NCBI RefSeq assembly: GCF_008017535.1
Contig: NZ_VRUA01000008.1
Span: 62,001-126,000 of the forward strand
Source of the DNA: Ottowia flava
Lineage (GTDB): Bacteria > Pseudomonadota > Gammaproteobacteria > Burkholderiales > Burkholderiaceae_C
Length of the DNA: 64,000 bases
Direction: 5' to 3'
The position numbers were made by a program, and so were the translations under genes. The notes under the pieces are model-generated. The model worked only from the letters and a program-made list of their open reading frames with translations, was not told the DNA's origin and made no database searches. Positions within the stretch are counted from its first letter, which is position 1, and every line of letters starts with the position of its first letter. Below are positions 9,709-41,143 of the stretch, piece after piece.

Positions 9709-9743
9709 GGTAAAGATAGCAATCAACCGATGAAGCGCGAGCG

Positions 9744-24269: not shown

Positions 24270-24595
24270 GGGCGGCGCTGCGAGGGTGAAGCGAAAGTAG
24301 CCGCGTGCCGATCAGGTCAGTGCGATCTGCATCCCACCGGCCAAGGCCAAGGGGCCGGCCCCTGAGCTGCACGGGTATCCCGTGAGCCCCGGCGCGTGGA
24401 GCGCCAAGGCCCAAGTTCAGCCTAAGACGGGGCCTGCGCGTGAGGGTGTGAATGGCTTTCTGAACCGCCCACCAAACATCTTCAACACGACCGAAAGCAG
24501 CCGCGCGTTCGAATTCGACGCTTTGGGCACCGCCCACAGTTGCGGTGAACGGACGAGGCTGACGTGGGCACTGCCGCACCATCTTTTCGCTATCT

Positions 24596-24655
24596 TTTCA
24601 GAAGCTACCAGCGCATATGCAGGCTGCCTTCAGAAGCGTTTTTAGCCTGAATTTC
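24596..24655 (+). repeat. dispersed repeat, weak copy
   Basis: Weakly matching copy of the repeat described at 26349 (AGAAGCTACCAGCGCAT, then CTGCCTTCAG and TAGCCTGAA), possibly of a related subtype. Confidence 0.4.
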
Positions 24656-24675
24656 CGCACAGGTGCACCGCGGCA

Positions 24676-24703
24676 AAATACCCAGTTTCAGGGATATGCA
24701 AAG
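24676..24703 (+). promoter_or_regulatory. shared dyad element upstream of lipoprotein C
   Basis: Almost identical to the element at 8555 and in the same orientation to its gene: AAATACCCAGTTTCAGGG then ATATGCAAA. It lies about 66 bp before the ATG at 24769. Confidence 0.55.
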
Positions 24704-24768
24704 TCACCAATAAAACATCCAATTACCTCTCTGCCCCAATGTTCATCTGTTTTTAGGTCCTTTGCCCC

Positions 24769-26292
24769 ATGTCCCTTGCTGCCCGCCCCGCCCACCATGT
24801 TTTCCGTCTGAGCGCCCTGGCCGCCGCCACCGCGCTGTCGCTGGTCGCCTGCGGTGGCGATGACGGCGATACATCCGTCACGCCCCAGGCCAGCGCGCTG
24901 AAAGTCGGTGACCAGTACACCGTCGCCGTGCAGGTGGGCGATCAGGCGCCCAGCAGCGAAAGCTTTCGCGTCTACGGCATCACCGATCAGCTGGATGTGG
25001 TCAGCACCGACAACGGCAAGCTAATCCCGGGCAGCCTGTTCGCGCTGCCGGATGCGCCAGCAGCCAAACAGGCCGGTCAAATAGAAGACTCGTGCGACCA
25101 AAACACCGCCTGGGGCCGATTAGAGTGCTACATGATGGTGACGGCGCAGCTTGAGGCGCAGATTCAGGCGCTGCTTAGGGCCCAGTTCGAAGCCATGAAA
25201 AGAGTTCAGCTGAGCAAGGACTTCAAGAACGCCGAAGCGGTCGACCCGGCGGCGGTGCTGCACCAAATCGCCGACCTCGACATCGACCTGCCCACCGTGA
25301 TGGCCGACCTGTCGCGCTCAGGCCTGACGCCGCTGGAATACGTCGAGTTCTACGACACGTTGGACGTCGCGCCCGGCTTTGCGAGCCAGCAAGATGCCGA
25401 AGGCCAGTTGATCGGGTTCTTTCAGAGCGTGCAGGAAGAAGTCGAGCAAGGCTACAGCTGCGGCAACATCAACCCGGCACGCAACCGCTGTGGCCCCACC
25501 AAAGCCGCCGCTGCAGCTGAAGTCAGCGCCACGCCCGCCGTAGCCTACGTGCCCAACCAAAAGGACTTCCTGGCTGCGCTGGCCGCACAGGGCATGAGCT
25601 GGAAGGACTTTCTGGCCCGCATGAATGCACGTGGTCAGGACTTCGCCCACTTGCTGCTGGCTTTCCACGACTGGGCCGTCGCCACCTCGCCCGCCACCGA
25701 CGCCACCCTCTTCCCCGCCTTCATCACCGCCTATTTGGCGGGCGAGGTCGGCAAGACCGCCGCCACCGTGCAGCCCAAGAACGCCGCCGCCGCCGGGGCG
25801 GTGATGCAGGGCGTGGGCTCGCTGCTGTCGGTGGCCTGGGACATCGTCAAGAACAGCCGCCCCGTAGTGGACGCCGAAAGCACGCAGAACTTCGTGCTGT
25901 CGCAGCAAGACGCCGACCCGATGCACTACGCCGGCGCCACCAAAGACAAGACGAGCACCGTCACCGTCAAGTTCACCAGCCCCGGCGTGACCTGGGCCGA
26001 AACGCAGTTCCGCCTGGACGGCTACTACAACGCTACGCACAAGACGCTGGCGGGCCGCTGGATGCCGCAGCTCAATTTCGAGGTGTTCCAGGCCAGCGCC
26101 AAGCCCAGCATCTCGCTCAAGGTGCGCGCCAATGTGACCAGCGTGGTCAACGTCGGCACCCACGACGCGCCCATGCCAGAGACCGAGGTGCGCGTGGACA
26201 TCACGCAGGGCAGCCTGTTTCAGAGCAAGCTCAAAAAGGTGTGGTTCCGCGCCCACGGCGCCGAAGGCTTCAGCATCGTTGAAAAGAAGTAA
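24769..26292 (+). CDS. lipoprotein of an unrecognised paralogous family, member C
   Basis: Function not recognised; 507 aa. Signal peptide with lipobox LSLVAC (Cys28) followed by GGDDGD. It aligns with member A over the whole length: VEFYDTLDVAPGFA in the middle, GMSWKDFLARMNARGQDFAH after it, and AWDIVKNSRP plus DADPMHYAG at the start of the C-terminal part, which looks beta-rich. Two cysteine-containing insertions (SCDQNTAWGRLECYM and YSCGNINPARNRC) are absent from A and could form disulfides. It is the first gene of a likely run with two TAP-like hydrolase lipoproteins. Location is predicted outside the cytoplasm. Confidence 0.8.
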   Translation: MSLAARPAHHVFRLSALAAATALSLVACGGDDGDTSVTPQASALKVGDQYTVAVQVGDQAPSSESFRVYGITDQLDVVSTDNGKLIPGSLFALPDAPAAKQAGQIEDSCDQNTAWGRLECYMMVTAQLEAQIQALLRAQFEAMKRVQLSKDFKNAEAVDPAAVLHQIADLDIDLPTVMADLSRSGLTPLEYVEFYDTLDVAPGFASQQDAEGQLIGFFQSVQEEVEQGYSCGNINPARNRCGPTKAAAAAEVSATPAVAYVPNQKDFLAALAAQGMSWKDFLARMNARGQDFAHLLLAFHDWAVATSPATDATLFPAFITAYLAGEVGKTAATVQPKNAAAAGAVMQGVGSLLSVAWDIVKNSRPVVDAESTQNFVLSQQDADPMHYAGATKDKTSTVTVKFTSPGVTWAETQFRLDGYYNATHKTLAGRWMPQLNFEVFQASAKPSISLKVRANVTSVVNVGTHDAPMPETEVRVDITQGSLFQSKLKKVWFRAHGAEGFSIVEKK

Positions 26293-26475: not shown

Positions 26476-28245
26476 ATGAAACACCTGCTCGCCCCGCTTC
26501 GTCTCACCCTGGCGCTGACCGCCGGCGCCCTGCTCGTCGCCTGCGGCGGCGGCAATGACCACAACGGCGCCCCGCTGCCCGACCCGCTGGCCAGCTACCG
26601 CACGCAAACCCTGCAGTGGTCCGCCTGCGCCGAGGACGCGCTGGGCGAGAGCTTCGTGCCGATGATGCAGGCCGTGCTGGCGCAGTACGGCGAGCGCCTG
26701 CGCTGCAGCCTGATGCGCGCGCCGCTGGACTGGCAATACCCGGCGCGCGGCGACATCGTGGTGGCCGTGTCGCGCCTGGCCACGGCGCGGCCCGAGGCGC
26801 GGCGCGGCGCGCTGCTGACCAACCCCGGCGGCCCGGGCGCTGACGGCATGCTGGTCGGCAGCCTCAAGCTGGCCGACGGCCTGGCGCGCAGCGCGGCGGC
26901 CAGTGCCGACGGCACCGCCAGCGCGCAGCAGGGCGTGCTCGACGCCTACGACCTGGTCGGCTTTGCGCCCCGCGGCACGGGCCTCGGCACGCGACTCGAA
27001 TGCAAAAGCAGTGCGCCCGCGCAGGCGGTGGACTGGAGCGCCGCCGACTGGGACACACCCGAAAACCTGTCCCGCGCCGCGGCCAACGACCGTCTGGCCG
27101 CCGAAGCCTGTCTGCAGCAGCCGCTGGCACCACACGTCCACAGCGAGGCCAACGCGCGTGACATGGACCTGCTGCGCGGCCTGCTGGGCGAAGACAAGCT
27201 CAACTTTGTCGGCTATTCGTACGGGAGCTGGCTGGGGGCCTGGTACGCCGGCCTCTTCCCCGACAAAGTCGGGCGCATGGTGCTCGACGGCGTGGTCGAC
27301 TTCACCAGCAGCTTCGAGCAGGTCATGGTGCTGCAGGCGCCCGCGCGCCAGCGCCTGTTTGACGAGGTGCTGGCGCCTTACGCCGCGCGGCACCCGGCGC
27401 ACTTCCAGCTGGGTGACAGCGCGGCTGCGGTGCGTGGCGTGATGCCTGCGCTCAGCCCGCGGGTGCAGGCGGTGCTGTCCCAGCAATTGGCCGATGTGGT
27501 TTACGCCGCTGACGACGCCGACGTCTTGCTGAGCTTCGTCGCAGCCGCCCAAGGCCTTGACCAGGTGCTGCACCGCACAGTGCCTGAGCAGAGCGACGCG
27601 GTCGAGCAGGCGCTGGAGGCCCAGGTGTTCGCTGCGCAGAACGGGACGCGAGACGCGGTGCTGCGCATGTACGCGAAGACGCTCTACCAGCGTTACCGCG
27701 CCACGTGGGTGCTGCCGTCCACGGGCAACGCCGGCCTGAGTCCCTTCCTTTCGGTGTACTGGGCCACCCTGTGCAACGACACGGCCGCCACCACCGACGC
27801 CGCCGCCTGGGCCCACACGCTGCGTGGCATCGCCCAGCAGGCGCCGATGTTCTTTGCAGACAACGCCCGCAACGTGTGCGCCACCTGGGGCGGCCCGCAC
27901 GTGCAAAAGCCCGCGCTGGCACCGCTGCAGTCGATGGACCTGCTCTTCGTGCAGGCCCAGTACGACGGCGCCACCCCGGCCGAAGGCGCCGACCGCTTTT
28001 TCGCCCAGCTGCCGCAGGCCCGCCGCGTGAGCGTGCAGGGCAGCTACCAGCACGGCGTTTACCCCTACAACGATCGCTGCGTCGACCCGCTGGTCAGCCG
28101 CTACCTGCTGGGCCAAACGCCCACGGCGCGCGACACCGCGTGCGCCACGCAGGCCTTGCCACAGGACCGCGCCACGGCCGCCGACGAGCCCAGCGCAAAA
28201 GCCCTGGCGCTGCGCGCGCTGGCGCGACTTGGCCGCATTCATTGA
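26476..28245 (+). CDS. TAP-like alpha/beta-hydrolase lipoprotein 1
   Basis: 589 aa, secreted lipoprotein (LLVAC, Cys23, then GGGND). It is an alpha/beta hydrolase related to Streptomyces tripeptidyl aminopeptidases. Probable triad: Ser248 in GYSYGSWLG, Asp497 in YDGATPAEG and His526 in YQHGVYPY. The oxyanion-side segment TNPGGPGADG and the motif GFAPRGTG are typical. The C-terminal TAP-like domain holds the Asp and His. An exopeptidase or esterase acting outside the cytoplasm is the likely role; the substrate is unknown. It is about 55% alike by eye with the next gene, so a tandem duplication is clear. Confidence 0.85.
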   Translation: MKHLLAPLRLTLALTAGALLVACGGGNDHNGAPLPDPLASYRTQTLQWSACAEDALGESFVPMMQAVLAQYGERLRCSLMRAPLDWQYPARGDIVVAVSRLATARPEARRGALLTNPGGPGADGMLVGSLKLADGLARSAAASADGTASAQQGVLDAYDLVGFAPRGTGLGTRLECKSSAPAQAVDWSAADWDTPENLSRAAANDRLAAEACLQQPLAPHVHSEANARDMDLLRGLLGEDKLNFVGYSYGSWLGAWYAGLFPDKVGRMVLDGVVDFTSSFEQVMVLQAPARQRLFDEVLAPYAARHPAHFQLGDSAAAVRGVMPALSPRVQAVLSQQLADVVYAADDADVLLSFVAAAQGLDQVLHRTVPEQSDAVEQALEAQVFAAQNGTRDAVLRMYAKTLYQRYRATWVLPSTGNAGLSPFLSVYWATLCNDTAATTDAAAWAHTLRGIAQQAPMFFADNARNVCATWGGPHVQKPALAPLQSMDLLFVQAQYDGATPAEGADRFFAQLPQARRVSVQGSYQHGVYPYNDRCVDPLVSRYLLGQTPTARDTACATQALPQDRATAADEPSAKALALRALARLGRIH

Positions 28246-28274
28246 ACACACCATTGACCTACCCCAAACAAACC

Positions 28275-30110
28275 ATGCTCTTTGCACAACCACACCACCA
28301 CTTGCTGCCGCGCCTGGCGCACCTGTCGCGCCTGGCGCTGCTCCCTTTGGTCGCTGCGCTCACGGCCTGCGGCGGCGGGGATGACGAAGCCCCCGACCCG
28401 CTGGCCAGCTACCGCACCCAGACGCTGGACTGGGCGGCGTGCGACCCCGCGATCCTGGGCGAAGCCATCAGCAACCAGACCCGCGCAGCCTTCGAACAAC
28501 TTCAACCGAGCGAGCGGCTGCGCTGCGCAAAGTTGCGCGCGCCACTGGACTGGTCGCAGCCGGGGCGCGGCGACGTCAGCGTCGCCCTGATGCGCCTGGC
28601 CTCAGCCGAACCTGCGCAGCGCCGCGGCGCTCTGCTGTTCAACCCGGGCGGACCGGGCACCGACGGCCTCAGCCTGGCGTTGCGCCTGTTTGCCGCATTC
28701 GGCATCAGCGACGCCCAAACGCCGCAGGGCGCACTGCAACTGCGCCTGCTGAATGCTTACGACATGGTCGGCTTCTCCCCGCGCGGCGTGGGCGCCAGCA
28801 CGCGCCTGTCCTGCGACAGCGACGCCATGGCGCAGCCGGTGGACGAAACCGTCAGCGGCTGGAGCACGCCAGACAACCTCAAGACGCTGGACCACAACCG
28901 CGCCCAGCTGGCCGAAGCCTGCCGAAAAAACCCGCTCACGCCCTACATCAACAGCGACGCCACCGCGCGCGACATGGAGCTGATGCGTGTGGTGCTGGGC
29001 GAGGACAAACTCAACTACCTGGGCTATTCCTACGGCACCTGGCTGGGTGCCTGGTACGCCAGCCTGTTCCCCGAGAAGGTCGGGCGCATGGTGCTGGACA
29101 GTGCCGTCAATTTCAGCCTCAGCTTTGAGGCGGGTGTGGAGCTCCCGCAGCCGGCCGCCCGCGCGCGGCTGTTCGACGAGGTGCTCGCCCCCTACGCTGC
29201 GCGACACTCCGAGCGTTTCCAGCTGGGCGCCAGCGCAGACCAGGTGCGTGCCGCCGTGCCGGCCCTGAGCGAGCGTATGCAACCGGTGATGGGCCGGGTG
29301 TTGAGCCACCTGGGCTACGGCTCAAGCAACGCCGACGCCTACTTGGACGCGATGGCGGCCGGCCAGGGCCTGAACGCCGTGCTGAAAGCGCTGGGCGACC
29401 CAATCGACGAAGACGCCGCCGAGGCGGCGCTGGACGCACAGGTCTACGACCCACTCGACCCCCGGCGCGATGCCCTGCTGCGCGACTACGTCGCCGAAAC
29501 CCTGCTGCCCCTCTATGCGGCCCTGTGGCTGGAGCCCCAGCCCAACGCCATCGCGCTGGCTGGTGCCACCGGCCAGGCCGTGCGTTGCAACGACACACCC
29601 GTCACCACCGACTGGGCCAGCTGGAGCCCCGTTGTGCGCAGCGCCGCCGCTGCCGCGCCGCTGTTCTTCTCCACGCTGCTGGACAGCCGCGTCTGCGCGT
29701 TCTGGGGCGGCCCCAGCGTGCAAAAACCTGACTGGACGCCGATGAAGGCGCTGGACATCCTGTACGTGCAGTCCGAATTCGACAGCGCCACCGCCACCCC
29801 CAGCGCCACGGCCTTCTTCAACCAGCTGCCCGGCGCGCGCCGCGTCTACGTGCCCGGCGAATACCAGCACGGCGTGTACCCCTACACCGACGACTGCGTG
29901 GACCCCACCGTGAGCCGCTACCTGCTGGGCGAAACCCCCACGCAGCGCGAGACGGTGTGCAGCGCCAAGCCGCTGGCGCTGGACGCGCCGCAGGTGGCCA
30001 AAGCCCACCGCGCCAGCGCTTACCTCGACCCGGCCGCCGCCGCCGAGCTGATCGATGCCTTCAAGCGTGGCCTGATCCCGGCGCGCCGCCTGCCGGGCGC
30101 CGGGCACTGA
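28275..30110 (+). CDS. TAP-like alpha/beta-hydrolase lipoprotein 2
   Basis: 611 aa, tandem paralogue of the preceding gene, starting 29 bases after its stop. Lipobox ALTAC (Cys32). Predicted triad: Ser252 in GYSYGTWLG, Asp503 in FDSATATPS and His532 in YQHGVYPY. The segments DPLASYRTQTLDWAAC and NPGGPGTDG match its neighbour closely. Both are predicted peptidases or esterases tethered to a membrane. They share a lipobox followed by glycines and acidic residues with the family at 24769, although the folds differ. Confidence 0.85.
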   Translation: MLFAQPHHHLLPRLAHLSRLALLPLVAALTACGGGDDEAPDPLASYRTQTLDWAACDPAILGEAISNQTRAAFEQLQPSERLRCAKLRAPLDWSQPGRGDVSVALMRLASAEPAQRRGALLFNPGGPGTDGLSLALRLFAAFGISDAQTPQGALQLRLLNAYDMVGFSPRGVGASTRLSCDSDAMAQPVDETVSGWSTPDNLKTLDHNRAQLAEACRKNPLTPYINSDATARDMELMRVVLGEDKLNYLGYSYGTWLGAWYASLFPEKVGRMVLDSAVNFSLSFEAGVELPQPAARARLFDEVLAPYAARHSERFQLGASADQVRAAVPALSERMQPVMGRVLSHLGYGSSNADAYLDAMAAGQGLNAVLKALGDPIDEDAAEAALDAQVYDPLDPRRDALLRDYVAETLLPLYAALWLEPQPNAIALAGATGQAVRCNDTPVTTDWASWSPVVRSAAAAAPLFFSTLLDSRVCAFWGGPSVQKPDWTPMKALDILYVQSEFDSATATPSATAFFNQLPGARRVYVPGEYQHGVYPYTDDCVDPTVSRYLLGETPTQRETVCSAKPLALDAPQVAKAHRASAYLDPAAAAELIDAFKRGLIPARRLPGAGH

Positions 30111-30167
30111 CCAAGGTCGGGGAGCGTGGTCATGCGCGCTTCTCCGCTAGATGAATGCTCCTCTTTT

Positions 30168-30221
30168 CGGAGCTTCTCGCGCAGATTGCACCAGGGTTTC
30201 AGCCACTTTTTATACCTGAAA
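30168..30221 (+). repeat. dispersed repeat, weak copy
   Basis: Diverged copy of the repeat described at 26349 (GGAGCTTCTCGCGCAG, then CCAGGGTTTCAG). Its end, with TATACCTGAAACCGGGTG, also resembles the dyad element at 8555. It sits at the broken 5' edge of pseudogene D. Confidence 0.45.
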
Positions 30222-30229
30222 CCGGGTGG

Positions 30230-30816
30230 GCATGCGCCGAGGTCTACGACACGCTGGACCAGATTCTGGCGTTCGCGTCGGCGGACGACGCAGAGCTGCG
30301 GGCGATGCGCTTTTTTGACGATGTCGAAGAATACGAGCTGCAGGCGCGGCCTGCGCGACCCTGCTTCGACGACGGGGATGGGAAAGCCCGAGGTTTCCTG
30401 ACTGCAGCCAGAACACCAAGGCCGTCGCCGACGATGCCGCCAGAGACCCGGTGCCGGCGGCCACTCAGCGGGTCTGGCTCGACGCCTTCGCCGCGCTGGG
30501 CACCAATTTCCCCCAATTTTTGAGCGCCATGGCTGAGCGCGGCAACGACTTTGCGCGGCTGACGGGCGTGTACGCCAACTGGCGCGGTGCGCACCCTGAC
30601 GCTACGATGCCGCTGGACTTCATCGCGGCCTACCTGTCGAGCGTCAAGCTGGACGCCATGGCCCGCACCTACGCTTTCCCCGACAGCGCGCGCTTCAAGG
30701 TGGAAGCGACGCAGGCCGGTTTGGGCGTGGTGAATGCGCCGCCGGCTGCACCCCAGGAGACATATCTGAGCTACCGTAACGGCTTCGCGGGCGGCACCCG
30801 CCAGGCCGGGCCCTGA
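30230..30816 (+). pseudogene. lipoprotein family member D, remnant
   Basis: Remnant of the lipoprotein family at 7139 and 24769. One frame (from about 30235) reads EVYDTLDQILAFASADDAEL, matching the FYDTLD..FAS signature. After a frame change near 30450 a second frame (30451-30816) reads FPQFLSAMAERGNDFARL and DFIAAYLSS, matching the following block. The signal peptide, N-terminal third and C-terminal domain are missing, so it is not a working gene. The second frame alone would make a 121-residue protein. Confidence 0.7.
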
Positions 30817-30891
30817 ACACAATGTCTGCCCTGCGTGCATCCGCCAAGTGAGCGGCGCGTTGCGCGTTCAGCAGCGCGGTAAGCTCCGCGC

Positions 30892-32109
30892 TTGCCTGCC
30901 GCCAACCCCGCCTCCCGCCGCATCGCCCACCTCGACATGGACGCGTTCTACGCGTCGGTCGAGTGGCTGCGCTACCCGCAGCTCAAGGGACTGCCGATGG
31001 TCATTGGCGGCGGGCGGCGGCGCGAAGACGACCTGATCGGGCGCCTGAACGCGGAGCGCCCAGAGCGCGCCTGGACCGCCGAGCATCTGGCCGAAATCCC
31101 CGTCGACTGGTTCCCGCTGCTGAAGGACTACGTCGGCCGCGGCGTGATCACCACCGCCACCTACCCGGCAAGGCAATTTGGCGTGGGCTCGGCCATGGGC
31201 CTAATGAAGGCCGCCAAGCTGTGCCCGCAGGCGATCCTGCTGCCGGTGGACTTTGACGAATACCGGCGCTTTTCGCGCGCCTTCAAGACGGTGGTCCGCG
31301 ACATCGCTCCGGTGATGGAAGACCGCGGTGTGGACGAGGTCTACATCGACTTCACCGAGGTGCCCGGCGGCCAGCGCGAAGGCGGGCGCGTGCTGGCGCG
31401 CCTGCTGCAAAAGAGCATCTTTGACGCGACGGGGCTGACCTGCTCGATCGGTGTGGCGCCCAACAAGCTGATCGCCAAGATGGCGAGCGAATTCAACAAG
31501 CCGAACGGCATCAGCATCGTGCACGAAACCGACCTGCAGCCCCTTATCTGGCCCCTGCCCTGCCGCAAGATCAACGGCATCGGCCCCAAGGCCGATGAAA
31601 AGCTGCAAGGCCACGGCATCCGCACCGTGGGCGATCTGGCCGCGCGCGAGCGCCCCTGGCTGGTGCAGCACTTCGGCAAGGCCTACGGCGCCTGGCTGCA
31701 CGACGCCGCCTGGGGCCGCGACGAGCGCCCGGTGGTCACCGAAAGCGAGCCCGTCAGCATGAGCCGCGAAACCACCTTCGACCGTGACCTGCACGCCGTG
31801 CACGACCGCGCCGAGCTAGGCGCGGTGTTCACACAGCTGTGCGAACAGGTCGCGGGCGACCTGCAGCGCAAGGGCTACGTCGGCAAGACGATCGGCATCA
31901 AGCTGCGTTTTGACGACTTCAAGATCGCCACGCGCGACACCACCGTGGCCGAGCACACGCAGGACGCGCGCCGCATCCGCCAGGTCGCCGGCCAGTGCCT
32001 GAAGCGCGTGCCGCTGGAGCGGCGCCTGCGCCTGTTGGGCGTGCGCGTGGGTTCGCTGGTGAAGGTGGGCGAAGCGCCGCCGCCCGAGGCGCTTCCGCTG
32101 TTCGAATAG
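30892..32109 (+). CDS. dinB: DNA polymerase IV (DinB, Y-family)
   Basis: Error-prone translesion polymerase, 405 aa, with a TTG start at 30892. The Y-family motifs are present: HLDMDAFYASVE with the metal Asp pair, VDEVYIDFTE with the second acidic site, the CSIGVAPNKLIAKMAS block, and a helix-hairpin-helix NGIGPKADEKL. The C-terminus ALPLFE is a beta-clamp binding peptide. Between VIGGG and GVITTATYPAR the protein carries about 40 extra residues (EDDLIGRLNAERPERAWTAE and beyond) compared with E. coli Pol IV. No LexA box was found upstream, and the Shine-Dalgarno is weak. Confidence 0.92.
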   Translation: MPAANPASRRIAHLDMDAFYASVEWLRYPQLKGLPMVIGGGRRREDDLIGRLNAERPERAWTAEHLAEIPVDWFPLLKDYVGRGVITTATYPARQFGVGSAMGLMKAAKLCPQAILLPVDFDEYRRFSRAFKTVVRDIAPVMEDRGVDEVYIDFTEVPGGQREGGRVLARLLQKSIFDATGLTCSIGVAPNKLIAKMASEFNKPNGISIVHETDLQPLIWPLPCRKINGIGPKADEKLQGHGIRTVGDLAARERPWLVQHFGKAYGAWLHDAAWGRDERPVVTESEPVSMSRETTFDRDLHAVHDRAELGAVFTQLCEQVAGDLQRKGYVGKTIGIKLRFDDFKIATRDTTVAEHTQDARRIRQVAGQCLKRVPLERRLRLLGVRVGSLVKVGEAPPPEALPLFE

Positions 32110-32158
32110 CCAAGACCCAGCGCGCTGGTCGGCGCACCGCGCTCCCTAGAATGCAAGC

Positions 32159-33151
32159 ATGACCGACCGCCCCCGCATCCTCGTTTCGCGCGCCATCTTC
32201 CCCGAAGTGCTGGCGCAACTGGCCCAGCACTTCGACGTGGAATCGAACCAGGACGATGCCGCCTGGTCGCGCGAGGAATTCGTCCGCCGCCTGCAGGGCA
32301 AGCAGGGCGTGCTGACCACCGGCAGCGAGCGTGTCGACGCCGAGCTGCTGGCCGCCTGCCCCGCCCTCCAGATCTGCGCCAACATGGCCGTCGGCTACAA
32401 CAACTTCGACGTGCCGGCGATGAGCGCGGCCGGCGTGCTGGCCACCAACGCGCCCGGCGTGCTGACCGAAACCACGGCCGACATGGGCTTTGCCCTGCTG
32501 ATGGCCGCCGCGCGTCGCGTCACCGAGGGCGAGCACTTCCTGCGCGCCGGTGCATGGAAGCGCTGGTCCTACGACATGCTGCTGGGCCAGGACGTGCACG
32601 GCAGCACGCTGGGCATCGTCGGCATGGGCCGCATCGGTCAGGGCATCGCCCGGCGCGGCGCGCACGGCTTCGGCATGAAGGTGATCTACCACAACCGCTC
32701 GCGCCTGCCCGAGGCGGACGAGCAGGCGGTGGGCGCGCGCTACGTCGGCCTGGAAGAACTGCTGCGCAGCGCCGACCACGTGGTGCTGGTGCTGCCCTAC
32801 ACGCCCGAGGCGCACCACCTGATCAACGCCGAGCGCATCGCGCTGATGAAGCCCGGCGCCACGCTGATCAACATCGCCCGCGGCGGCCTGATCGACGAGA
32901 ACGCGCTGGCCGCCGCCCTGCAGGCCGGCCGCATCGCCGCCGCCGGGCTGGACGTGTTCGAGGGCGAGCCCCAGGTCAACCCGGCCCTGCTGGCCTGCCG
33001 CAACGTCGTGCTGACCCCCCACATCGGCAGCGCCACCGGACCGACGCGCATGGCGATGGCGCAGCTGGCGGCAGACAACCTGATCGGCTTTCTGACCCAG
33101 GGCAAGCCGGTGACGCCGCTGAATGCGGACAGCGTGGCCCACCACGGCTGA
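32159..33151 (+). CDS. D-2-hydroxyacid dehydrogenase (glyoxylate/hydroxypyruvate reductase type)
   Basis: NAD(P)-dependent reductase of 2-oxoacids, 330 aa. The Rossmann motif GIVGMGRIGQGIARR, the substrate-binding MAVGYNNFDV, the Arg of NIARGGLIDE, the Glu of FEGEP and the catalytic His of TPHIGSAT are all present. Closest by eye to GhrB/glyoxylate reductases. It lies 49 bases after dinB, possibly in the same transcript. Confidence 0.92.
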   Translation: MTDRPRILVSRAIFPEVLAQLAQHFDVESNQDDAAWSREEFVRRLQGKQGVLTTGSERVDAELLAACPALQICANMAVGYNNFDVPAMSAAGVLATNAPGVLTETTADMGFALLMAAARRVTEGEHFLRAGAWKRWSYDMLLGQDVHGSTLGIVGMGRIGQGIARRGAHGFGMKVIYHNRSRLPEADEQAVGARYVGLEELLRSADHVVLVLPYTPEAHHLINAERIALMKPGATLINIARGGLIDENALAAALQAGRIAAAGLDVFEGEPQVNPALLACRNVVLTPHIGSATGPTRMAMAQLAADNLIGFLTQGKPVTPLNADSVAHHG

Positions 33152-33159
33152 CCGGCGCT

Positions 33160-33223
33160 GATTTCATATAAAACATGCCTCCAGCCCTTGCTGGTCAAGC
33201 GCGAGCAGCTCTTTTTTTCATAG
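33160..33223 (-). repeat. dispersed 55-bp repeat
   Basis: Diverged minus-strand copy of the repeat described at 26349, filling the gap before the type IIL gene. Confidence 0.65.
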
Positions 33224-33233
33224 TCCACCGCCT

Positions 33234-36200
33234 GTGATCACCGCACCGGAATTCATCGCCAAGTGGGGCCCTGGCGGCTCTGCGGCGCACCTCAACGAAG
33301 AACAGGGTGCACAAAGCCACTTCCTTGACCTGTGCGAGCTGCTCGGCGTGCCCAAGCCCGGCAGCCCGGGCCTGGCCGACGAATACCTGTTCGAACGCCA
33401 GTCGCTGGTACTGGGCGAGGCGCGCGGCTACGCCGACGTGTTCTACCGCGACCACTTCGCCTGGGAAAACAAGGCCCCCGGCAAGAACCTGGACGCGGCG
33501 CTGCGCCAGCTGCAGCAATACAGCCTGAACCTGAGCAACCCGCCGCTGCTGGTGGTGTGCGACCGCCTCACCATCCGTGTCCACACCCAGTTCAACGGCC
33601 ACCCGAGCGAAACGCACACCGTCCGCATCGACCAGCTGGACCAGCCTGCCCAGCGCGACCTGCTGCGCCGCCTCTGGACCGCGCCCGACAGCTTTCGCCC
33701 GCGCCAGACCAACCGCGACATCACCGAAGAAGCCGCCCGCAGCTTTGCCACCCTGGCCGAACAGTTGCGCGGGCGCGGTCACCACCCCGACGTGGTGGCG
33801 CACTTTCTGACCCAGTGCCTGTTCTGCTTCTTTGCCGAAGACGTGGGCCTGCTGCCCGGTCGCATGTTCGAACGCCTGGTCGGCAACCGCCAGATCACCA
33901 GCGACCGCCTGACCGCCGGCCTGGCGCAGCTGTTCAGCACCATGCAAAGCGGCGGCCTGTACGGCCCTGACGACATCCCCTGGTTCAACGGCGGGCTGTT
34001 CCAGCGCATCGACGTGCCCCAGCTGGAAATCCTCGACATCACCGAGCTGCGCAACGCCGCCAGCCTGAACTGGTCCGCCATCGACGTCTCCATCTTCGGC
34101 ACCCTGTTCGAACGCGGGCTGGACCCCGCCAAGCGCAGCCAGCTCGGCGCGCACTACACCGACCCGGCCACCATCGCCCGCATCGTCGAGCCCGTCGTCA
34201 CCCGCCCATTGCTACAACAATGGGAGCTGGTCGCGCACGACCTGCAAGCGCTGACGGCCAGAATCAAGCGCCACGGCGACGCCAGCTACCGCAAGGCGCA
34301 CGCCCGCTTCATCGACTGGCTGGAGAGCCTGCGCGCCTACCGCATCCTCGACCCGGCCTGTGGCAGCGGCAACTTTCTGTTCATGGGGCTGAAGGCGCTC
34401 AAGGACATCGAGCTGTTCACCCTGTCCGCCGCCGCCGACCTGGGCCTGGACCGCGAGCAGGACCTGGTCACCGGCCCGCACAACATGCTGGGCATCGAGC
34501 TGAACGAATACGCCGCCGAGCTGGCCCGCGTCAGCCTGTGGATCGGTGAGATCCAGTGGCGCATGGCCCACGGCTACCCGCCCAAGACCAACCCGGTGCT
34601 GGAGCCGCTGGAGCAGATCGAATGCCGCGACGCGCTGCTGCAGTGGCTGCCCGCCGACCGTCCGGTGCAGGACGCGGCGCAGGCATCGGGGACGGATCCC
34701 GATGTGGCGCAGCCAAACCCGGGCGCCGACCCCGATCCCGGCCCGCAAGGCCCCCGCGCCGTCGAAGCGCCGTGGCCCAAGGCGGATGTGGTGATTGGCA
34801 ACCCGCCGTTCATCGGTGATAAGAAAATGCGCCGCGAACTGGGCGACGCTTACGTCGACGCGCTGCGCAAGACCTTCCAGGGGCGTGTGCCTGGCGGTGC
34901 CGACTTCGTGTGCTACTGGTTCGAGAAATCGCGCGCCGCGCTGGTGACGCACGGCCTGGTGGCTGCGGGCCTGGTCACCACCAATTCGATCCGCGGCGGC
35001 GCCAACCGCAAGGTGCTCGACGCCATCGTGCGCGACAGCCGCATCTACGACGCCTGGAGTGATGAGCCGTGGGTGAACGATGGGGCGGCGGTGCGGGTTT
35101 CGTTGGTGGCGTTTGGGAACGTCGCCCCTCCGATCCATCTCGACGGTCAACAGGTTGACCTTATTCAAAGCAGCCTTGACGAGGGAAGCGCTGGAAATGC
35201 TGACCTGACATCCGTCAAGCGGTTGTCTACAAATGGGGGCGCGAGCTTTCAGGGACCGGTACTTGTTGGCGATTTCGAGATACGGTATGCGACGGCGAAG
35301 CAGTGGCTCTGGACGCCCAATCCCCATGGTCGACCCAATGCGGACGTTGTTCGCCCACTCATGAACGGCAAGGACATCACCAGTCGCTCTCGTGGCGTGT
35401 GGGTGGTGGATTTCAATGCCATGACCGAATCGGACGCCAGCTTGTTCGAAAAGCCGTTCGAATACGTACGCCAATACGTCAAGCCGTTTCGAGACAAAAA
35501 CCGCGATGAATCACGCAAGAAGCGTTGGTGGCTACACGGACGCCTTGGAACCGATTGGCGGACAGCTACGCGGTCTGTGGATCGATACGTGGCGACCTCA
35601 CAGGTTTCAAAGCATCGAACGTGGACTTGGCAGAGCGGCGTCGTCTGGCCGCATCAAACCGTTATCGCCATCGCCCGCGCCGACGACACCACCTTCGGCA
35701 TCCTGCACAGCCGCTTCCACGAGCTCTGGTCGCTGCGCATGGGCACGTCGCTGGAAGACCGGCCGCGCTACACCCCCACCACCTGCTTTGAAACCTTCCC
35801 CTTCCCCGCCGGCCTGACGCCCGCCGACACCGCGCACCAGCGCACCGAGGCGCTGCCGGGCGGTGCGTTGATCCCGGCGGGCCTGAGCGACGATTCAGAG
35901 CCAAATCGGCCTCCAGACCATTCCCAGACTGCGCCAGCAGCTATCAAAATCATAGAAACCCGGGCCGCTGCCAGCACCATTGCCGAGGCCGCGCACCGGC
36001 TCGACGGACTGCGCCAGAACTGGCTGAACCCGCCCGAATGGACGCAGCGCGTGCCCGAGGTGGTGCCGTTGGGCATGACCGCATCGCCCTACCCGGACCG
36101 CATCGAACCCAGGCCAGACCTGAGCGAAGCCGACGCCAAGGCGCTGCAAAAGCGCACGCTGACCAACCTCTACAACCAGCGCCCGGCCTGGCTGGCGCAG

Positions 36201-36371
36201 GCGCACGCGCAGTTGGACGCGGCGGTGGCCGCCGCCTACGGCTGGGCCGACTACACGGCCGACATGCCCGACGACGAGATCCTGCGCCGCCTGCTGGCGC
36301 TGAACCTGGCGCGTGCCGCGACAGCGCCGCCGACGCCGTCCGCGCGTGCCGTGACGTCGTCGGCAGATTGA
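33234..36371 (+). CDS. type IIL (MmeI-like) restriction-modification enzyme
   Basis: Single-chain 1045-aa protein that should both cut DNA and methylate adenine. The N-terminal nuclease motif D-x9-E-x-K is intact (Asp68, Glu78, Lys80, the MmeI arrangement). It is followed by the helical spacer (FFAEDVGLLPGRMF, GAHYTDPATI), the methyltransferase domain with DPACGSGNF near 373 and NPPF near 523, a target-recognition region at about 620-815, and a helical C-terminus. The target-recognition part (about 35090-35660) is distinctly AT-richer than the rest, suggesting it was swapped in. A repeat copy lies in frame at 35890-35957. GTG start at 33234. No separate nuclease or specificity subunit is needed, and none is seen. 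Confidence 0.88.
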   Translation: MITAPEFIAKWGPGGSAAHLNEEQGAQSHFLDLCELLGVPKPGSPGLADEYLFERQSLVLGEARGYADVFYRDHFAWENKAPGKNLDAALRQLQQYSLNLSNPPLLVVCDRLTIRVHTQFNGHPSETHTVRIDQLDQPAQRDLLRRLWTAPDSFRPRQTNRDITEEAARSFATLAEQLRGRGHHPDVVAHFLTQCLFCFFAEDVGLLPGRMFERLVGNRQITSDRLTAGLAQLFSTMQSGGLYGPDDIPWFNGGLFQRIDVPQLEILDITELRNAASLNWSAIDVSIFGTLFERGLDPAKRSQLGAHYTDPATIARIVEPVVTRPLLQQWELVAHDLQALTARIKRHGDASYRKAHARFIDWLESLRAYRILDPACGSGNFLFMGLKALKDIELFTLSAAADLGLDREQDLVTGPHNMLGIELNEYAAELARVSLWIGEIQWRMAHGYPPKTNPVLEPLEQIECRDALLQWLPADRPVQDAAQASGTDPDVAQPNPGADPDPGPQGPRAVEAPWPKADVVIGNPPFIGDKKMRRELGDAYVDALRKTFQGRVPGGADFVCYWFEKSRAALVTHGLVAAGLVTTNSIRGGANRKVLDAIVRDSRIYDAWSDEPWVNDGAAVRVSLVAFGNVAPPIHLDGQQVDLIQSSLDEGSAGNADLTSVKRLSTNGGASFQGPVLVGDFEIRYATAKQWLWTPNPHGRPNADVVRPLMNGKDITSRSRGVWVVDFNAMTESDASLFEKPFEYVRQYVKPFRDKNRDESRKKRWWLHGRLGTDWRTATRSVDRYVATSQVSKHRTWTWQSGVVWPHQTVIAIARADDTTFGILHSRFHELWSLRMGTSLEDRPRYTPTTCFETFPFPAGLTPADTAHQRTEALPGGALIPAGLSDDSEPNRPPDHSQTAPAAIKIIETRAAASTIAEAAHRLDGLRQNWLNPPEWTQRVPEVVPLGMTASPYPDRIEPRPDLSEADAKALQKRTLTNLYNQRPAWLAQAHAQLDAAVAAAYGWADYTADMPDDEILRRLLALNLARAATAPPTPSARAVTSSAD
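35890..35957 (-). repeat. dispersed 55-bp repeat, in frame inside the type IIL gene
   Basis: Minus-strand copy of the repeat described at 26349 (AAATCGGCCTCCAG, then CTGCGCCAGCAGCTAT). It is read through as DDSEPNRPPDHSQTAPAAIK, between the recognition domain and the C-terminal helices. Confidence 0.75.
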
Positions 36372-36430
36372 TCAAGTTTTTGGCCTGAAACCCTTTCCTG
36401 ATCTGCGCGAGCAGCTTTCAACTTCATAGC
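36371..36430 (-). repeat. dispersed 55-bp repeat
   Basis: Copy of the repeat described at 26349 (GGCCTGAAACCC, then CTGCGCGAGCAGCT), between the type IIL gene and the small gene that follows. Confidence 0.7.
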
Positions 36431-36437
36431 AGAATCC

Positions 36438-36689
36438 ATGAACGCAGCCGCCGCCGACGACGACGATGAAGACCGCATGGTCGACGTGATGTCGCCGGAA
36501 GTGCCCGAGGAGATTCGCCAGGCGGTGCTGGCCCGCAACGCGCCCGATGCCACGCTCTGGCGCTGCCCGCGCAGGTCGGGGCTGCGCGGCCCGCTGTCCT
36601 GGCTGGGCATCGGGCAACGGCGGGTGATCATCGAGTGGTGGCTGTTGAGCGCCGATGGCGAGCTGATCGAAGCGTTCTGGCTGACATGA
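36438..36689 (+). CDS. small hypothetical protein
   Basis: 83 aa, no family recognised. It begins with an acidic stretch (ADDDDEDR), then SPEVPEEIRQAVLARNAPDA and a tryptophan-rich C-terminus (VIIEWWLLSADGELIEAFWL). GC at third codon positions is high, as for real genes here. It lies between the type IIL enzyme and rmuC, all on one strand. No clear Shine-Dalgarno, so the call is moderate. Confidence 0.55.
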   Translation: MNAAAADDDDEDRMVDVMSPEVPEEIRQAVLARNAPDATLWRCPRRSGLRGPLSWLGIGQRRVIIEWWLLSADGELIEAFWLT

Positions 36690-36735
36690 CACCCCGCGCG
36701 GCGCTCGCGCCTGACGCACCCCAACCGACTTATCC

Positions 36736-38154
36736 ATGGCTTCTACGTTTCCCGACTGGTTGATCTGGCTGGCCCTGGCCGGCCTGTTGCTCAACGCCAT
36801 CCTGCTGATCGTGCTGCTGCTGCGCCGGCCGCAGCGGCCGGACGACGTGGCGTCGCGCGGCGAGCTGCAGGCGGTGGTCGGGCAGGCCGTGGGGCAGCAG
36901 CAGGAGCGCCTGGCGCACGGGCTGCGGCAGGAGATGGGCGAGTCGGCGCGCGACGGGCGGCAGGAGCTGGCGCAGACGCTGCTGCGCTTTCAGGACGCGG
37001 TGATGCGCCAGGGCGCCGAAGCCACGCGCACGCAGAACACGCAGATCGACGCCTTTGCCCAGCAGCTGGCGCACCTGCGCGGCGGCCTGTCGGAGACGCT
37101 GACGCAGCAGCTGACCGCCTTGAGCGAAGCCAACGCGCGCCGCCTGCAGGAAGTGCGCGGCACGCTGGAGCAGCAGCTGGCCGCGCTGCAGGCCGCCAAC
37201 AGCGCCAAGCTGGACGAGATGCGCCGCACGGTGGACGAGAAGCTGCACGCCACGCTGGAGCAGCGCCTGGGCGAGAGCTTCAAGCAGGTGGCCGAGCGGC
37301 TGGAGCTGGTGCACCGCGGCCTGGGCGAGATGCAGCGGCTGGCGCAGGACGTGGGTTCGCTCAACCGGGTGCTGACCAACGTCAAGTCGCGCGGCGTGTT
37401 TGGCGAGGTGCAGCTGGCCGGGCTGCTGGAGCAGGTGTTCACGCCCGAGCAGTACGCCGCCAACGTCGAGACGGTGCCGGGCAGCAACGCGCGCGTCGAG
37501 TTCGCGATCCGTCTGCCGGGCCGGCGCGAGGACGGCGCGCCGCTGTGGCTGCCGATCGACGCGAAGTTTCCGCGCGAGGATTACGAGCGCCTGCTGGCCG
37601 CGCAGGACGCGGCCGACGCGCCGGGCGCCGAAGCCGCGGCCAAGGCGATCGAGGCGCGCCTGCGGCTGGAGGCGCGCACCATCCGTCAGAAGTACATCGC
37701 CGCGCCGCACACGACCGACTTCGCCATCCTGTTCCTGCCGACCGAAGGCCTGTACGCCGAAGCGCTGCGCCGCCCTGGCCTGGTGGAGGCGCTGCAGCGC
37801 TACCACCGCATCACGCTGGCCGGGCCGACCACGCTGCTGGCGACGCTGAGCAGCCTGCAAATGGGCTTTCGCACGCTGGCGCTGGAAAAGCGCAGCGCCG
37901 AGGTGTGGGAAGTGCTGGGCGCGGTGAAGACCGAGTTCGGCAAGTTCGGCGAATTCGTCAGCAAGGTGCGCGGCCAGGCCGAGAACGTGGTCAAGACGCT
38001 GGATCAGGCGCAGACGCGCACCAACATGATGAACCGCGCGCTGCGCCAAGTGGAGGCGCTGCCCGACGAGGCGGCCGGGCGGCTGTTGCCGGGCGGCGGC
38101 GCGGGGATGGACGCCCCGCCGGACACGTCGGCGCCACCATCGCCTGCGCCATGA
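36736..38154 (+). CDS. rmuC: DNA recombination protein RmuC
   Basis: 472 aa: one N-terminal membrane helix (about residues 7-28), a long coiled-coil region to about 200 rich in Gln, Glu and Arg, then the RmuC nuclease-like domain (KSRGVFGEVQLAGLLEQVF; LPIDAKFPREDYERL; FLPTEGLYAEAL). In E. coli rmuC mutants have raised inversion rates at short inverted repeats. ATG at 36736. Confidence 0.93.
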   Translation: MASTFPDWLIWLALAGLLLNAILLIVLLLRRPQRPDDVASRGELQAVVGQAVGQQQERLAHGLRQEMGESARDGRQELAQTLLRFQDAVMRQGAEATRTQNTQIDAFAQQLAHLRGGLSETLTQQLTALSEANARRLQEVRGTLEQQLAALQAANSAKLDEMRRTVDEKLHATLEQRLGESFKQVAERLELVHRGLGEMQRLAQDVGSLNRVLTNVKSRGVFGEVQLAGLLEQVFTPEQYAANVETVPGSNARVEFAIRLPGRREDGAPLWLPIDAKFPREDYERLLAAQDAADAPGAEAAAKAIEARLRLEARTIRQKYIAAPHTTDFAILFLPTEGLYAEALRRPGLVEALQRYHRITLAGPTTLLATLSSLQMGFRTLALEKRSAEVWEVLGAVKTEFGKFGEFVSKVRGQAENVVKTLDQAQTRTNMMNRALRQVEALPDEAAGRLLPGGGAGMDAPPDTSAPPSPAP

Positions 38155-38157
38155 ACG

Positions 38158-38222
38158 CTATACCTTTAGTAGATGTTTGCGCAAATGGTTGTAAGGCCAG
38201 TGGCCCATTTTCCTTGAAAGAC
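38158..38222 (+). repeat. dispersed 55-bp repeat
   Basis: Copy of the repeat described at 26349 (AGATGTTTGCGCAAATGG, then TAAGGCCAGTGGCCC and CTTGAAA), between rmuC and the MFS gene. Confidence 0.8.
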
Positions 38223-38230
38223 GGACTTTC

Positions 38231-39433
38231 ATGACCGGGCGCGAGCTGCTGCGCCTGATGCTGGCGCAAATCTGTGTGCACACCGCCATGACCGGCACGC
38301 GCCTGGCCGCGCCGCTGTTGGCGCTGCAGCAGGGTTACAGCGCGGCGGCGGTGGGCGTGTTGCTGGCGCTGTACGCGCTGTCGGGCGTTTTTCTGGCGCT
38401 GCCGGCGGGGCGGCTGGCGGACCGGCGCGGGCTGCACCTGCCGATGCAGCTGGCCGTGGGCGCGGCGGTGCTGGGCGCGGGGATGGCGGCGGCGTTTCCG
38501 GTGTACAGCGTGCTGTGCGTGTCGGCGCTGCTGACCGGCGCATCGGCCGGCGCGATGCAGATCGCCATGCAGCGGCACGTGGGGCGTTCGGCGCGCGGGC
38601 CGGACGAGTTGAAGCACCTGTTCAGCTGGATCGCCGTGGCGCCGCCGACGGCCAACTTTCTGGGGCCGTTTGCGGCGGGGTTGCTGATCGACTTTGCCGG
38701 TCCGCAGCCGGCGGACATGGTCGGCTTTCGCGCGGCGTTTGCGCTGATGGCGCTGCTGCCGCTGGTCGGCTGGCTGCTGGCGCGCGGCGCGCCCGAATCC
38801 GAGGCGCTGGCCGGCAGCGCGGCCGAGCAGACCAAGAGCTCGGCCTTTGAGCTGGTGGCGCTGCCGGGCATCCGCCGCCTGCTGTTCGCCAACCTGCTGC
38901 AAGCGGCAGCGTGGGACGCCCACACCTTCGTGCTGCCCATCCTGGGCCATGAGCGCGGCATGGCGGCATCGACCATCGGCGTGCTGCTGGGCTCGTTCGC
39001 CGTGGCGGCCGCGGTGGTGCGGGTGGCCCTGCCGCGCCTGACCGCCAACGTGCCGGAATGGCGCGTCATCTACTTCGCCACGCTGGTGGCGGCGGTGGCG
39101 CTGCTGGTCTACCCGCTGATGCCTGACGCCTGGACCATGGGCATGTGTTCGGTGGTGCTGGGCCTGGCGCTGGGCGCCGTGCAGCCGATGGTGCTGGTGC
39201 TGCTGCACCGCGTGGCGCCGCCAGCGCGCCAGGGCGAGGCCATGGCGCTGCGCATGATGACGATGAACTTCTCCAGCTTCCTGCTGCCCATGCTTTTCGG
39301 CTCGATCGGCGCGGTGACCGGCGTGGCCGGCCTGTTCTGGCTGGTGGCGGGCGTGGTGGCGATCGGCGCACGCGAGGTACCGGGGTTGCGGGAGGTGGAC
39401 GCGCCGGGTACCCCGCCATCCAGCAAGATATGA
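38231..39433 (+). CDS. MFS transporter
   Basis: Major facilitator with about 12 predicted membrane helices in 400 aa. The loop 2-3 motif is recognisable as [12 protein letters not shown]. The substrate cannot be told from sequence; drug or metabolite efflux is possible. It converges on ntrC, with a repeat copy between them. Confidence 0.88.
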
Positions 39434-39489
39434 ACGAAATCGGCCTCCAGCCTTACAACCACCTGCGCAAACAGCTCCCGATTCAATAG
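39434..39489 (-). repeat. dispersed 55-bp repeat
   Basis: Near-consensus minus-strand copy of the repeat described at 26349 (AATCGGCCTCCAG, then ACCACCTGCGCAAACAGCT), between the convergent MFS and ntrC genes. Confidence 0.85.
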
Positions 39490-39545
39490 CACACAGCATG
39501 GGCGACGCGGTGGCAAAAGGATGCCCGAGCCGCGCCGCAGCGTGT

Positions 39546-41072
39546 TCAGTCTTCCAGACCCAGGTCCTGAATCTTGCGCGTGATGGTGTTGCGCCCGATG
39601 CCCAGGCGCTGCGCCGCTTCGATGCGGCGCCCACGGGTGCTGGCCAGTGCGGCCTGGATGAGGCGCGCTTCGGCGCGGTGGATCAGCCGGTCCCACACGT
39701 CTGGCAGGCCGGCTTCCAGCAACTGGGCGGCTTCGGCCTCCAGCGCGCCCTCCCAGCCGTTCGCGGCGTCGCCGCGGGGGCCGGGGTCGAGGGGCAACGC
39801 CGCCAGCGGTGGCGCGGCGATGCCATGCTCCAGCACCTGGCCACCGCCGCCATCGGCCAAGGCGGGCGCCTGGACCGGTGCCGCACCGGGCGGCGCCTCG
39901 GTGCGCGGGGGCACTGCCAGCACTTCGGGCGGCAGGTCCTTCAACTCGACCACCTGCGAGGGCGCCATGACGGTCAGCCAGTGGCAGATGTTTTCCAGTT
40001 GGCGCACGTTGCCGGGGAAGGGAAAACCTTCCAGCCGTGCCAGCGCCGGGGCCGATATCTGCTTGGGCTGCACGCCCAGCTGGCGGGCGCTCTGCGCCAG
40101 GAAATGGCGGGTCAGCGACGCGATGTCCTCGCGCCGCTCGCGCAGGGGCGGCAGGCGCAGGCGGATGACGTTCAGGCGGTGGAACAGGTCTTCGCGGAAG
40201 GCACCATCGGCCACGCGCTGCTCCAGGTTCTGGTGCGTGGCGGCGATCACGCGCACATTGGCCTGCACCGCCTGGTGGCCGCCGACGCGGTAGAACTGCC
40301 CGTCTGACAGCACGCGCAGCAGGCGCGTCTGCAAGTCGAACGGCATGTCGCCGATCTCGTCGAGGAACAACGTGCCGCCCTCGGCCTGCTCGAAACGGCC
40401 GCGGCGCAGCGTCTGCGCGCCCGTGAAGGCGCCGCGTTCGTGGCCGAACAGCTCGGATTCGAGCAGGTCCTTGGGGATGGCCGCCGTGTTGATGGCGACG
40501 AACGGCCCGCCTGCGCGGCTGGAATGCTTGTGCAGCGCGCGCGCCACCAGTTCCTTGCCGCTGCCGGATTCGCCGGTGATCAGCACCGTGACCTGGCTGT
40601 GCGACAACCGGCCAATGGCGCGGAACACGTCCTGCATGGCCGGCGCCTGGCCCAGCATCTCGGGCGCCACGGTCTGCGGCGCTTCGGCCACGGCTTCGCG
40701 CTGGCTTTCGGTGACGGCGCGCTGAATCAGCTCGACCGCCTGCGGCACGTCAAACGGCTTGGCCAGGTAGTCGAACGCGCCGCCCTGAAAGGCCGAGACC
40801 GCGCTGTCCAGATCGGAAAACGCCGTCATCACGATCACCGGCAGTTGCGGCAACCGCTGCTTGACGGTGGCCAGCAGCTCCAGCCCGTTGCCGCCGGGCA
40901 TGCGGATGTCGCTGACCAGCACGCCGGGCGCGTCGGCGCCCGACGCGTCCAGCGCGCTCAGCACTTCGCGCGGGTTGGCAAACGAGCGCGTGGGCAGCGC
41001 GGCACGCGCCAGCGCCTTTTCAAGGACGAAGCGAATGGACGGGTCATCGTCGACGATCCAGATCGGCTTCAT
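39546..41072 (-). CDS. ntrC: nitrogen regulation response regulator NtrC (NR(I))
   Basis: Sigma-54-dependent activator, 508 aa. Receiver domain with phosphorylation site Asp55 (VLVSDIRMPG). AAA+ domain with Walker A GESGSGKELVARALH and the sigma-54 contact loop ELFGHERGAFTGA. C-terminal Fis-type helix-turn-helix (RRIEAAQRLGIGRNTITRKI). Phosphorylated by NtrB under nitrogen limitation, it should switch on glnA through the sites at 44589 and 44617. Its start lies 71 bases after the ntrB stop. Confidence 0.96.
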   Translation of the reverse strand: MKPIWIVDDDPSIRFVLEKALARAALPTRSFANPREVLSALDASGADAPGVLVSDIRMPGGNGLELLATVKQRLPQLPVIVMTAFSDLDSAVSAFQGGAFDYLAKPFDVPQAVELIQRAVTESQREAVAEAPQTVAPEMLGQAPAMQDVFRAIGRLSHSQVTVLITGESGSGKELVARALHKHSSRAGGPFVAINTAAIPKDLLESELFGHERGAFTGAQTLRRGRFEQAEGGTLFLDEIGDMPFDLQTRLLRVLSDGQFYRVGGHQAVQANVRVIAATHQNLEQRVADGAFREDLFHRLNVIRLRLPPLRERREDIASLTRHFLAQSARQLGVQPKQISAPALARLEGFPFPGNVRQLENICHWLTVMAPSQVVELKDLPPEVLAVPPRTEAPPGAAPVQAPALADGGGGQVLEHGIAAPPLAALPLDPGPRGDAANGWEGALEAEAAQLLEAGLPDVWDRLIHRAEARLIQAALASTRGRRIEAAQRLGIGRNTITRKIQDLGLED

Positions 41073-41143
41073 GGGGGTATCGCTCCTGCAAACTGAAAGG
41101 CATGGGCACGGGTGTCCGGACAACCCCTGGCCTGGCCAGCAGC

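Follow-up and report, generated by a model that had tools for sequence, protein, structure and literature searches.

The restriction-modification (R-M) gene described here raises the question of whether a stretch of unusual base composition within its specificity-determining part records the exchange of that part between enzymes. The gene lies in a window of 64,000 nucleotides from Ottowia flava (contig NZ_VRUA01000008.1, positions 62,001 to 126,000; all positions below are those of the window), and an earlier note on this DNA had described it as encoding a type IIL enzyme of the MmeI kind with an AT-richer segment, possibly a swapped module, at the place of the target recognition domain (TRD). 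MmeI is a type IIL enzyme with the recognition sequence TCCRAC(20/18), and the enzymes of its family methylate one strand, mostly at the penultimate A, and cut about 20/18 bases downstream. As a single reading domain directs both methylation and cutting in MmeI-type enzymes, exchanging this domain alters both together. Our overall reading, which we hold to be quite likely, is that the locus carries an intact type IIL enzyme which was inserted here and which has drawn its TRD from an exchanged pool. The idea of a swap probably holds, although it is not composition that supports it.

A complete MmeI-family enzyme

The open frame encodes a complete MmeI-family (type IIL/IIG) enzyme (Table 1). According to Pfam, a single chain carries nuclease, helical spacer, methylase and TRD in the order of MmeI, with the MmeI_TRD match covering amino acids 704-859 (profile positions 51-206 of 207, above cut-off). 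Residues D68, E78 and K80 of the nuclease motif are invariant in all 38 rows of our alignment A1 and have the spacing of the MmeI catalytic residues D70...E80-M81-K82, as given in the available part of PMC4833311. Two motifs of gamma-class adenine methylases are likewise present, LDPACGSG at residue 372 (the S-adenosylmethionine motif) and NPPF at residue 523. The earlier description of an MmeI-type protein with a D-x9-E-x-K nuclease, methylase motifs and the proper spacing is thus borne out. The PADLOC type IIG model PDLC03627 (REase_MTase_IIG) matches amino acids 4-1029 with 892.8 bits; we found no difference between this model and the enzyme, the model itself carrying no recognition sequence. 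MmeI is also the top sequence match in the PDB (5hr4; E 8.3e-38 with the single protein, 2.7e-82 with a profile), and the AlphaFold model of the enzyme (mean pLDDT 85.4) aligns with chain 5hr4_C over 687 residues within the range 163-1030 of the model (Z 34.5, root-mean-square deviation 3.9), the next chain reaching a Z of 21.8. The two proteins have in common their domain order, the nuclease motif, the methylase class, the fold of the TRD and the E/R residue pair for base 6 (roles from the available part of PMC4833311), even though the structural alignment gives only 20-24% identity; the enzyme differs from MmeI in a proline-rich linker of low model confidence at amino acids 479-504.

Two points weigh against so straightforward an assignment. 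The match to the C-terminal domain MmeI_C reaches 16.4 bits where the cut-off is 27, and since the nuclease domain is missing from the MmeI crystal entry used for comparison (5hr4; PMC4833311, available part), the fold match is no test of that domain. As to other systems, the methylase-TRD part of the enzyme matches models of DrmMI, the methylase of DISARM, with at best 251.7 bits, far below the type IIG match, and DISARM partners were matched neither by the six nearby proteins of the window (27705-41123, E 1e-10) nor by the open reading frame (ORF) of 83 amino acids that follows the gene (E 5). No known restriction-system partner was recognised among the same six proteins, and the cut-off for BREX PglX was not reached (best NCBIfam score 22.4 bits, cut-off 400). 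Taken by itself the enzyme is an ordinary one-protein member of the MmeI family; what sets the locus in perspective, namely the family-wide nature of its AT-rich patch, emerges from the relatives.

Table 1. Features of the enzyme gene and its immediate surroundings (window positions)
Feature	Position	Strand	Basis or remark
Intergenic repeat copy	33199..33212	+	35 bases ahead of start codon
MmeI-family type IIL restriction-modification gene	33234..36371	+	1045 amino acids, GTG start, open frame
MmeI_N, N-terminal PD-(D/E)xK nuclease domain, residues 4-179	33243..33770	+	Pfam, above cut-off
Catalytic D68-x9-E78-x-K80	33435..33473	+	Motif reading and alignment
MmeI_hel, helical spacer, residues 188-256	33795..34001	+	Pfam, above cut-off
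N6-adenine methyltransferase domain (MmeI_Mtase), residues 359-628	34308..35117	+	Pfam, above cut-off
Probably exchanged, AT-rich part of TRD, about residues 631-810	35124..35663	+	GC windows, nucleotide identity profile, third-position GC
Predicted base-3/4 determinants Q790 (=MmeI E751), Q808 (=N773), T809 (=A774)	35601..35660	+	Profile alignment to MmeI, column check; roles from available part of PMC4833311
Conserved 3' arm of TRD, residues 811-870	35664..35843	+	82-97% nucleotide identity per 30 codons, 6 relatives compared
Predicted base-6 determinants E841 (=E806), R843 (=R808); R845 (=R810, base 4)	35754..35768	+	Alignment to MmeI; roles from available part of PMC4833311
MmeI_C, C-terminal domain match, residues 972-1010	36147..36263	+	Pfam, below cut-off
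Intergenic repeat, second direct copy	36405..36418	+	Just past enzyme gene
83-amino-acid ORF	36438..36689	+	Family unassigned

Mosaic structure of the recognition domain

The case for exchange is carried by a mosaic pattern of identity and by conflicting trees, and not by GC content. Compared in bins of 30 codons with its same-genus orthologue L075 (which gives match values equal to those of L021 from genome G014), the gene falls from 84% nucleotide identity at amino acids 601-630 to 28% at 631-660, the level of unalignable sequence, stays at 42, 68, 57, 49 and 64% in the bins up to 781-810 and returns to 91% at 811-840, identity thus breaking at residues ~631 and ~811. The same decoupling is seen in the set of relatives compared. 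Among 66 rows, a count that includes six near-duplicates, backbone and TRD identity are weakly correlated (r 0.24), and the median TRD identity of the 142 pairs with a backbone identity of at least 80% is 45%. The gene described here shares 84.6% of its backbone and 43.2% of its TRD with L031, and 57.2% of its backbone and 61.8% of its TRD with L088. In line with this, the backbone tree of 58 rows differs from the TRD tree: the seven-row TRD clade that contains our gene is rejected by the backbone data at a cost of 488 log units (p-AU 7.5e-80), and a backbone clade of 15 rows is rejected by the TRD data at a cost of 450 log units (p-AU 1.3e-5). To the extent that sequence comparison can tell, the TRD segment has probably been exchanged among relatives, and the part of the earlier note that saw a swapped module in it stands on this evidence, though not on that of base composition.

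We suggest that the TRD would be drawn from a pool of segments which are swapped among relatives by recombination within conserved coding arms, that is, the methylase end before about residue 630 and the ADDTTFGILHS...LEDRPRY arm after about residue 810. The AT-rich patch would then be the exchanged segment itself. A comparable process has been described as Domain Movement for the R-M systems of Helicobacter pylori, where, according to the available parts of the reports, recognition domains swap partners, likely because repeated or conserved stretches on either side of them recombine (PMC3983042, PMC3077401). As far as these parts go, our case differs from Domain Movement in that one TRD at one site of a single-chain type IIL enzyme is concerned, across genera, with no movement of TRDs between two sites.

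Several observations speak against this proposal or limit it. For a clade of L033, L042 and L062, a test chosen post hoc from the trees, the conflict is not significant (not rejected, p-AU 0.124). Our gene and L075 fall within the same seven-row TRD clade, and the segment is accordingly not wholly foreign. A TRD-only search of 399 genomes of the family returned no near-identical donor, the best match being 69%, which means that any exchange is either old or involved a donor outside the sample. Fast divergence of the TRD in place retains a small probability as an alternative.

Base composition of the recognition domain among relatives

But does the composition of the segment mark the exchange? 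The dip as such is real. The segment 35090-35660 has a GC content of 0.571, and among the 300-base windows of the gene the three that tile 35050-35649 lie at 0.56-0.59 and all others at 0.62-0.71. Values as low occur in 55 of the 63,430 windows of 571 bases and at two places, around the TRD segment and at starts 24180-24203; 24180-24773 is the sole other stretch of the window with so low a GC content at this length. Third-position GC is 120/191 (0.628) in amino acids 619-809 and 753/854 (0.882) outside them (Fisher p 4.8e-15), the segment having been fixed by the earlier note ahead of this test. By the Pfam match and by the span of MmeI's own TRD (residues 621-825, PMC4833311, available part) the AT-rich segment lies inside the TRD, just where it had been said to fall. 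The claim that it alone is AT-richer holds for total GC, of which it is the only dip in the gene, but not for the third position, where amino acids 881-920 are low as well (-0.274).

The dip is not, however, peculiar to this gene. The aligned segment is lower in GC in 36 of the 38 orthologues used (out of 56 enzyme loci found), with a mean difference of -0.059 (standard deviation 0.040) as compared to -0.104 here, and four of the 38 have a difference as low or lower. Counted over 58 de-duplicated genes, this one included, the TRD is lower in total GC in 50 and in third-position GC in 53, which contradicts the view that low GC marks a swap specific to this gene; orthologues with the same compositional feature were what the earlier note itself had named as speaking against its reading. 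Even among more distant MmeI-type genes of the same genus, 8 of 11 picked show a dip of about 0.08 or more. The mean shift over the 58 genes is -0.159 at codon position 3 and +0.012 at positions 1 and 2; as the first two positions are unshifted, amino-acid composition is rejected as the cause. The bins 601-800 hold the minimum of third-position GC along the gene; each of them shows a negative deviation in 47-50 of the 57 relatives, and shallower dips in relatives lie at 481-600, 801-840 and 881-920. Conserved TRD columns are AT-shifted too (-0.105, versus +0.038 for conserved backbone columns), and the shift hence belongs to the whole segment, beyond its variable codons.

These data bear differently on the explanations that may be offered for the patch. 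If the segment had come in by one recent import from a GC-poor source and were marked by its composition, this would agree with the confinement of the dip and with its rank as seventh deepest of 58, six being deeper, as well as with the weaker dips of the TRD clade-mates L034 (-0.110) and L088 (-0.018), in which composition does not strictly track the TRD clade, a point that also weighs against our own proposal. Dip depth is moreover more alike among genes with the same triad of base-3/4 residues (5000 shuffles, p 0.0004 for total and for third-position GC, relatedness not being controlled). Yet an event confined to one gene does not account for a third-position dip in nearly all of the genes compared, nor for the dips of -0.21 to -0.30 in the clade-mates L089, L075, L090 and L037, the clade as a whole ranging from the value of L088 to -0.303 in L075; no GC-poor donor is found in the 399 family genomes either, and we regard such an import as distinctly improbable. 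We give equally little weight to the view that no exchange took place and that selection for new specificities simply made the TRD diverge quickly where it stands, the fast turnover lowering its third-position GC. The TRD is indeed among the less conserved parts of the protein, and conservation and the deviation of third-position GC are correlated across 26 bins (Spearman 0.48, p 0.013), but this correlation is lost when the TRD bins are left out (20 bins, 0.28, p 0.23, not significant). Furthermore, the shift of the conserved TRD columns does not fit this explanation, and neither the conflict between the trees nor a pair whose TRDs are more alike than their backbones would be expected from rate alone.

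A low GC intrinsic to TRD coding sequence and unrelated to transfer, for reasons such as translation speed, mRNA structure or local mutation bias, is unlikely in our estimate. It gains from the occurrence of the dip in low- and high-GC genes alike, as the dip is present in 5/5 genes with a backbone GC below 0.5 and shows little trend with backbone third-position GC (r -0.10). The same 5/5 genes, whose TRDs are lower and not higher in GC, lead us to reject random import from a pool of mixed GC as the sole cause. Against it speak the mutually close homologues L011, L025 and L029 (TRD identity 0.73-0.88), which are almost free of a dip (-0.004, -0.038 and -0.018); a fourth member of their subfamily, L026, whose TRD has diverged further (0.62-0.66), is at -0.169. 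This contrast comes from four genes in all, which have the same PADLOC model as their best match. L035 and L069, which have one triad in common and GC-rich TRDs, speak against it as well. Overall the pattern would fit exchanged segments that keep an AT-shifted composition, intrinsic causes being a less probable alternative. We put forward as a tentative and rather doubtful extension that TRD gene fragments of ~540-600 bases move between genera via the conserved arms and form a pool with an AT-shifted synonymous composition of its own, low third-position GC then being a footprint of specificity turnover that is absent where the TRD was not exchanged. If a synonymous AT shift does track exchange, it could serve as a flag for diversified specificity domains in genomes lacking methylation data. 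Among the literature matches listed, no title or abstract opening reports such a shift across TRDs, and the available part of PMC5198162 describes low GC solely at the level of entire type I systems.

That the enzyme is an inactive relic or a mere methylase we consider very improbable indeed. Such genes do decay in this genome, as is evident from a C-terminal fragment of another MmeI-type gene elsewhere in it (G000:C50:20216-20440, L002; 63% identity, amino acids 951-1029), a probable relic, but here the frame is intact and a separate column check finds D68, E78, K80 and NPPF conserved in 39 rows. The enzyme is probably active.

Predicted specificity

By analogy with MmeI, one recognition domain would guide two reactions, the methylation of just one adenine, on one of the strands, and a cut some 20 bases downstream. 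In the available part of PMC4833311, base 3 of the MmeI site is read by E751/N773, base 4 by A774/R810 and base 6 by E806/R808, the methylated A being base 5. The pair E841/R843 of the enzyme predicts C at base 6, and R845 together with a threonine in the position of MmeI residue 774 predicts R or G at base 4, which makes 5'-NNN(R/G)AC-3', with N6-methyladenine at the A, the predicted recognition sequence. MmeI has E/N/A at 751/773/774 where the enzyme has Q/Q/T; Q/Q at base 3 is without a base assignment in the available part of PMC4833311, and bases 1-2 are left as N, the alignment to MmeI being too uncertain there.

Because T809 is the last residue of the AT-rich stretch, this stretch includes the predicted base-3 residues and some of those for base 4, and the predicted base-6 residues belong to the conserved arm. 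The exchanged part may set bases 1-3 and part of base 4, and the conserved arm base 6 and the rest of base 4. L034 and L037 have the same residues for bases 3, 4 and 6 as our gene (Q/Q/T with E/R), and we therefore do not claim a unique recognition sequence for it; L075, L089 and L090 combine Q/Q/T with G/D at the base-6 positions. Eight base-3/4 triads in all are found with both E/R and G/D, which indicates that the two parts reassort. The locus and its relatives form a compact natural series of similar backbones with different recognition segments, of which the triads paired with two kinds of base-6 residues are a part, and which, with methylomes, could extend the code relating residues to bases.

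The probable insertion and its surroundings

The gene is surrounded by genes for a dinB-like protein (IMS family), a 2-hydroxyacid dehydrogenase, RmuC, a transporter of the major facilitator superfamily (MFS) and a sigma-54 regulator. Of 29 rmuC loci of other genomes, 11 (8 from the genus and 3 from the family) have the dehydrogenase gene immediately ahead of rmuC and no enzyme gene between them. Given this gene-free arrangement, the enzyme gene and the 83-amino-acid ORF are most simply explained as an insertion, and it looks as though ~3.6 kb of DNA carrying both arrived between the dehydrogenase gene and rmuC, the direction of the change being the one that the relatives suggest. Against this reading, the flanking sequence covered shows no dehydrogenase gene at the other 18 of the 29 loci. 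L075 has the dehydrogenase gene and rmuC as its neighbours too, but is separated from them by other DNA, about 1 kb on one side and 3 kb on the other. Behind this sister gene (7985-11160) come an ORF that matches no Pfam model and a HipA-like gene, and the 83-amino-acid ORF has no match there. In L135, a HipA-like gene stands between an enzyme-gene fragment and the 83-amino-acid ORF.

Two direct copies of an intergenic repeat, GCGCGAGCAGCTNT, flank the enzyme gene. This repeat has 41 matches in the genome and its reversed control none. A similar repeat occurs in the gene-free gap between the dehydrogenase gene and rmuC in four of seven relatives read (L153, L154, L160 and L161), and 4 of 36 orthologues have one no more than 150 bases upstream of the enzyme gene. 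A literature search for Ottowia and restriction-modification returned no papers. A conserved in-frame TGA near residue 1016 in relatives was considered and dropped, as the frames show ordinary stop codons at the gene ends.

The 83-amino-acid ORF has no match in Pfam, PADLOC or NCBIfam and a weak one only in PHROG (E 0.24). Relatives of it are present in 15 of the 399 family genomes, in 12 of them with an enzyme gene or part of one within about 3.5 kb and in three with none. Seen from the enzyme side, the ORF is matched (E 1e-4) at 8 of 56 loci, some of which are incomplete, and this low count, together with ORF copies that have no enzyme gene, weakens the idea of a strict enzyme partner. Two genomes from a single other genus have it directly after mutS and without an enzyme gene, the order elsewhere being mutS-enzyme-ORF, and in genome G183 it occurs with neither. 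It may be a mutS-side gene that was carried along. In eight relatives (L037, L039, L040, L045, L059, L082, L136 and L141) the enzyme gene or part of it is found downstream of mutS, at a distance of no more than about 1 kb except in L136, and this position looks like a recurrent insertion site.

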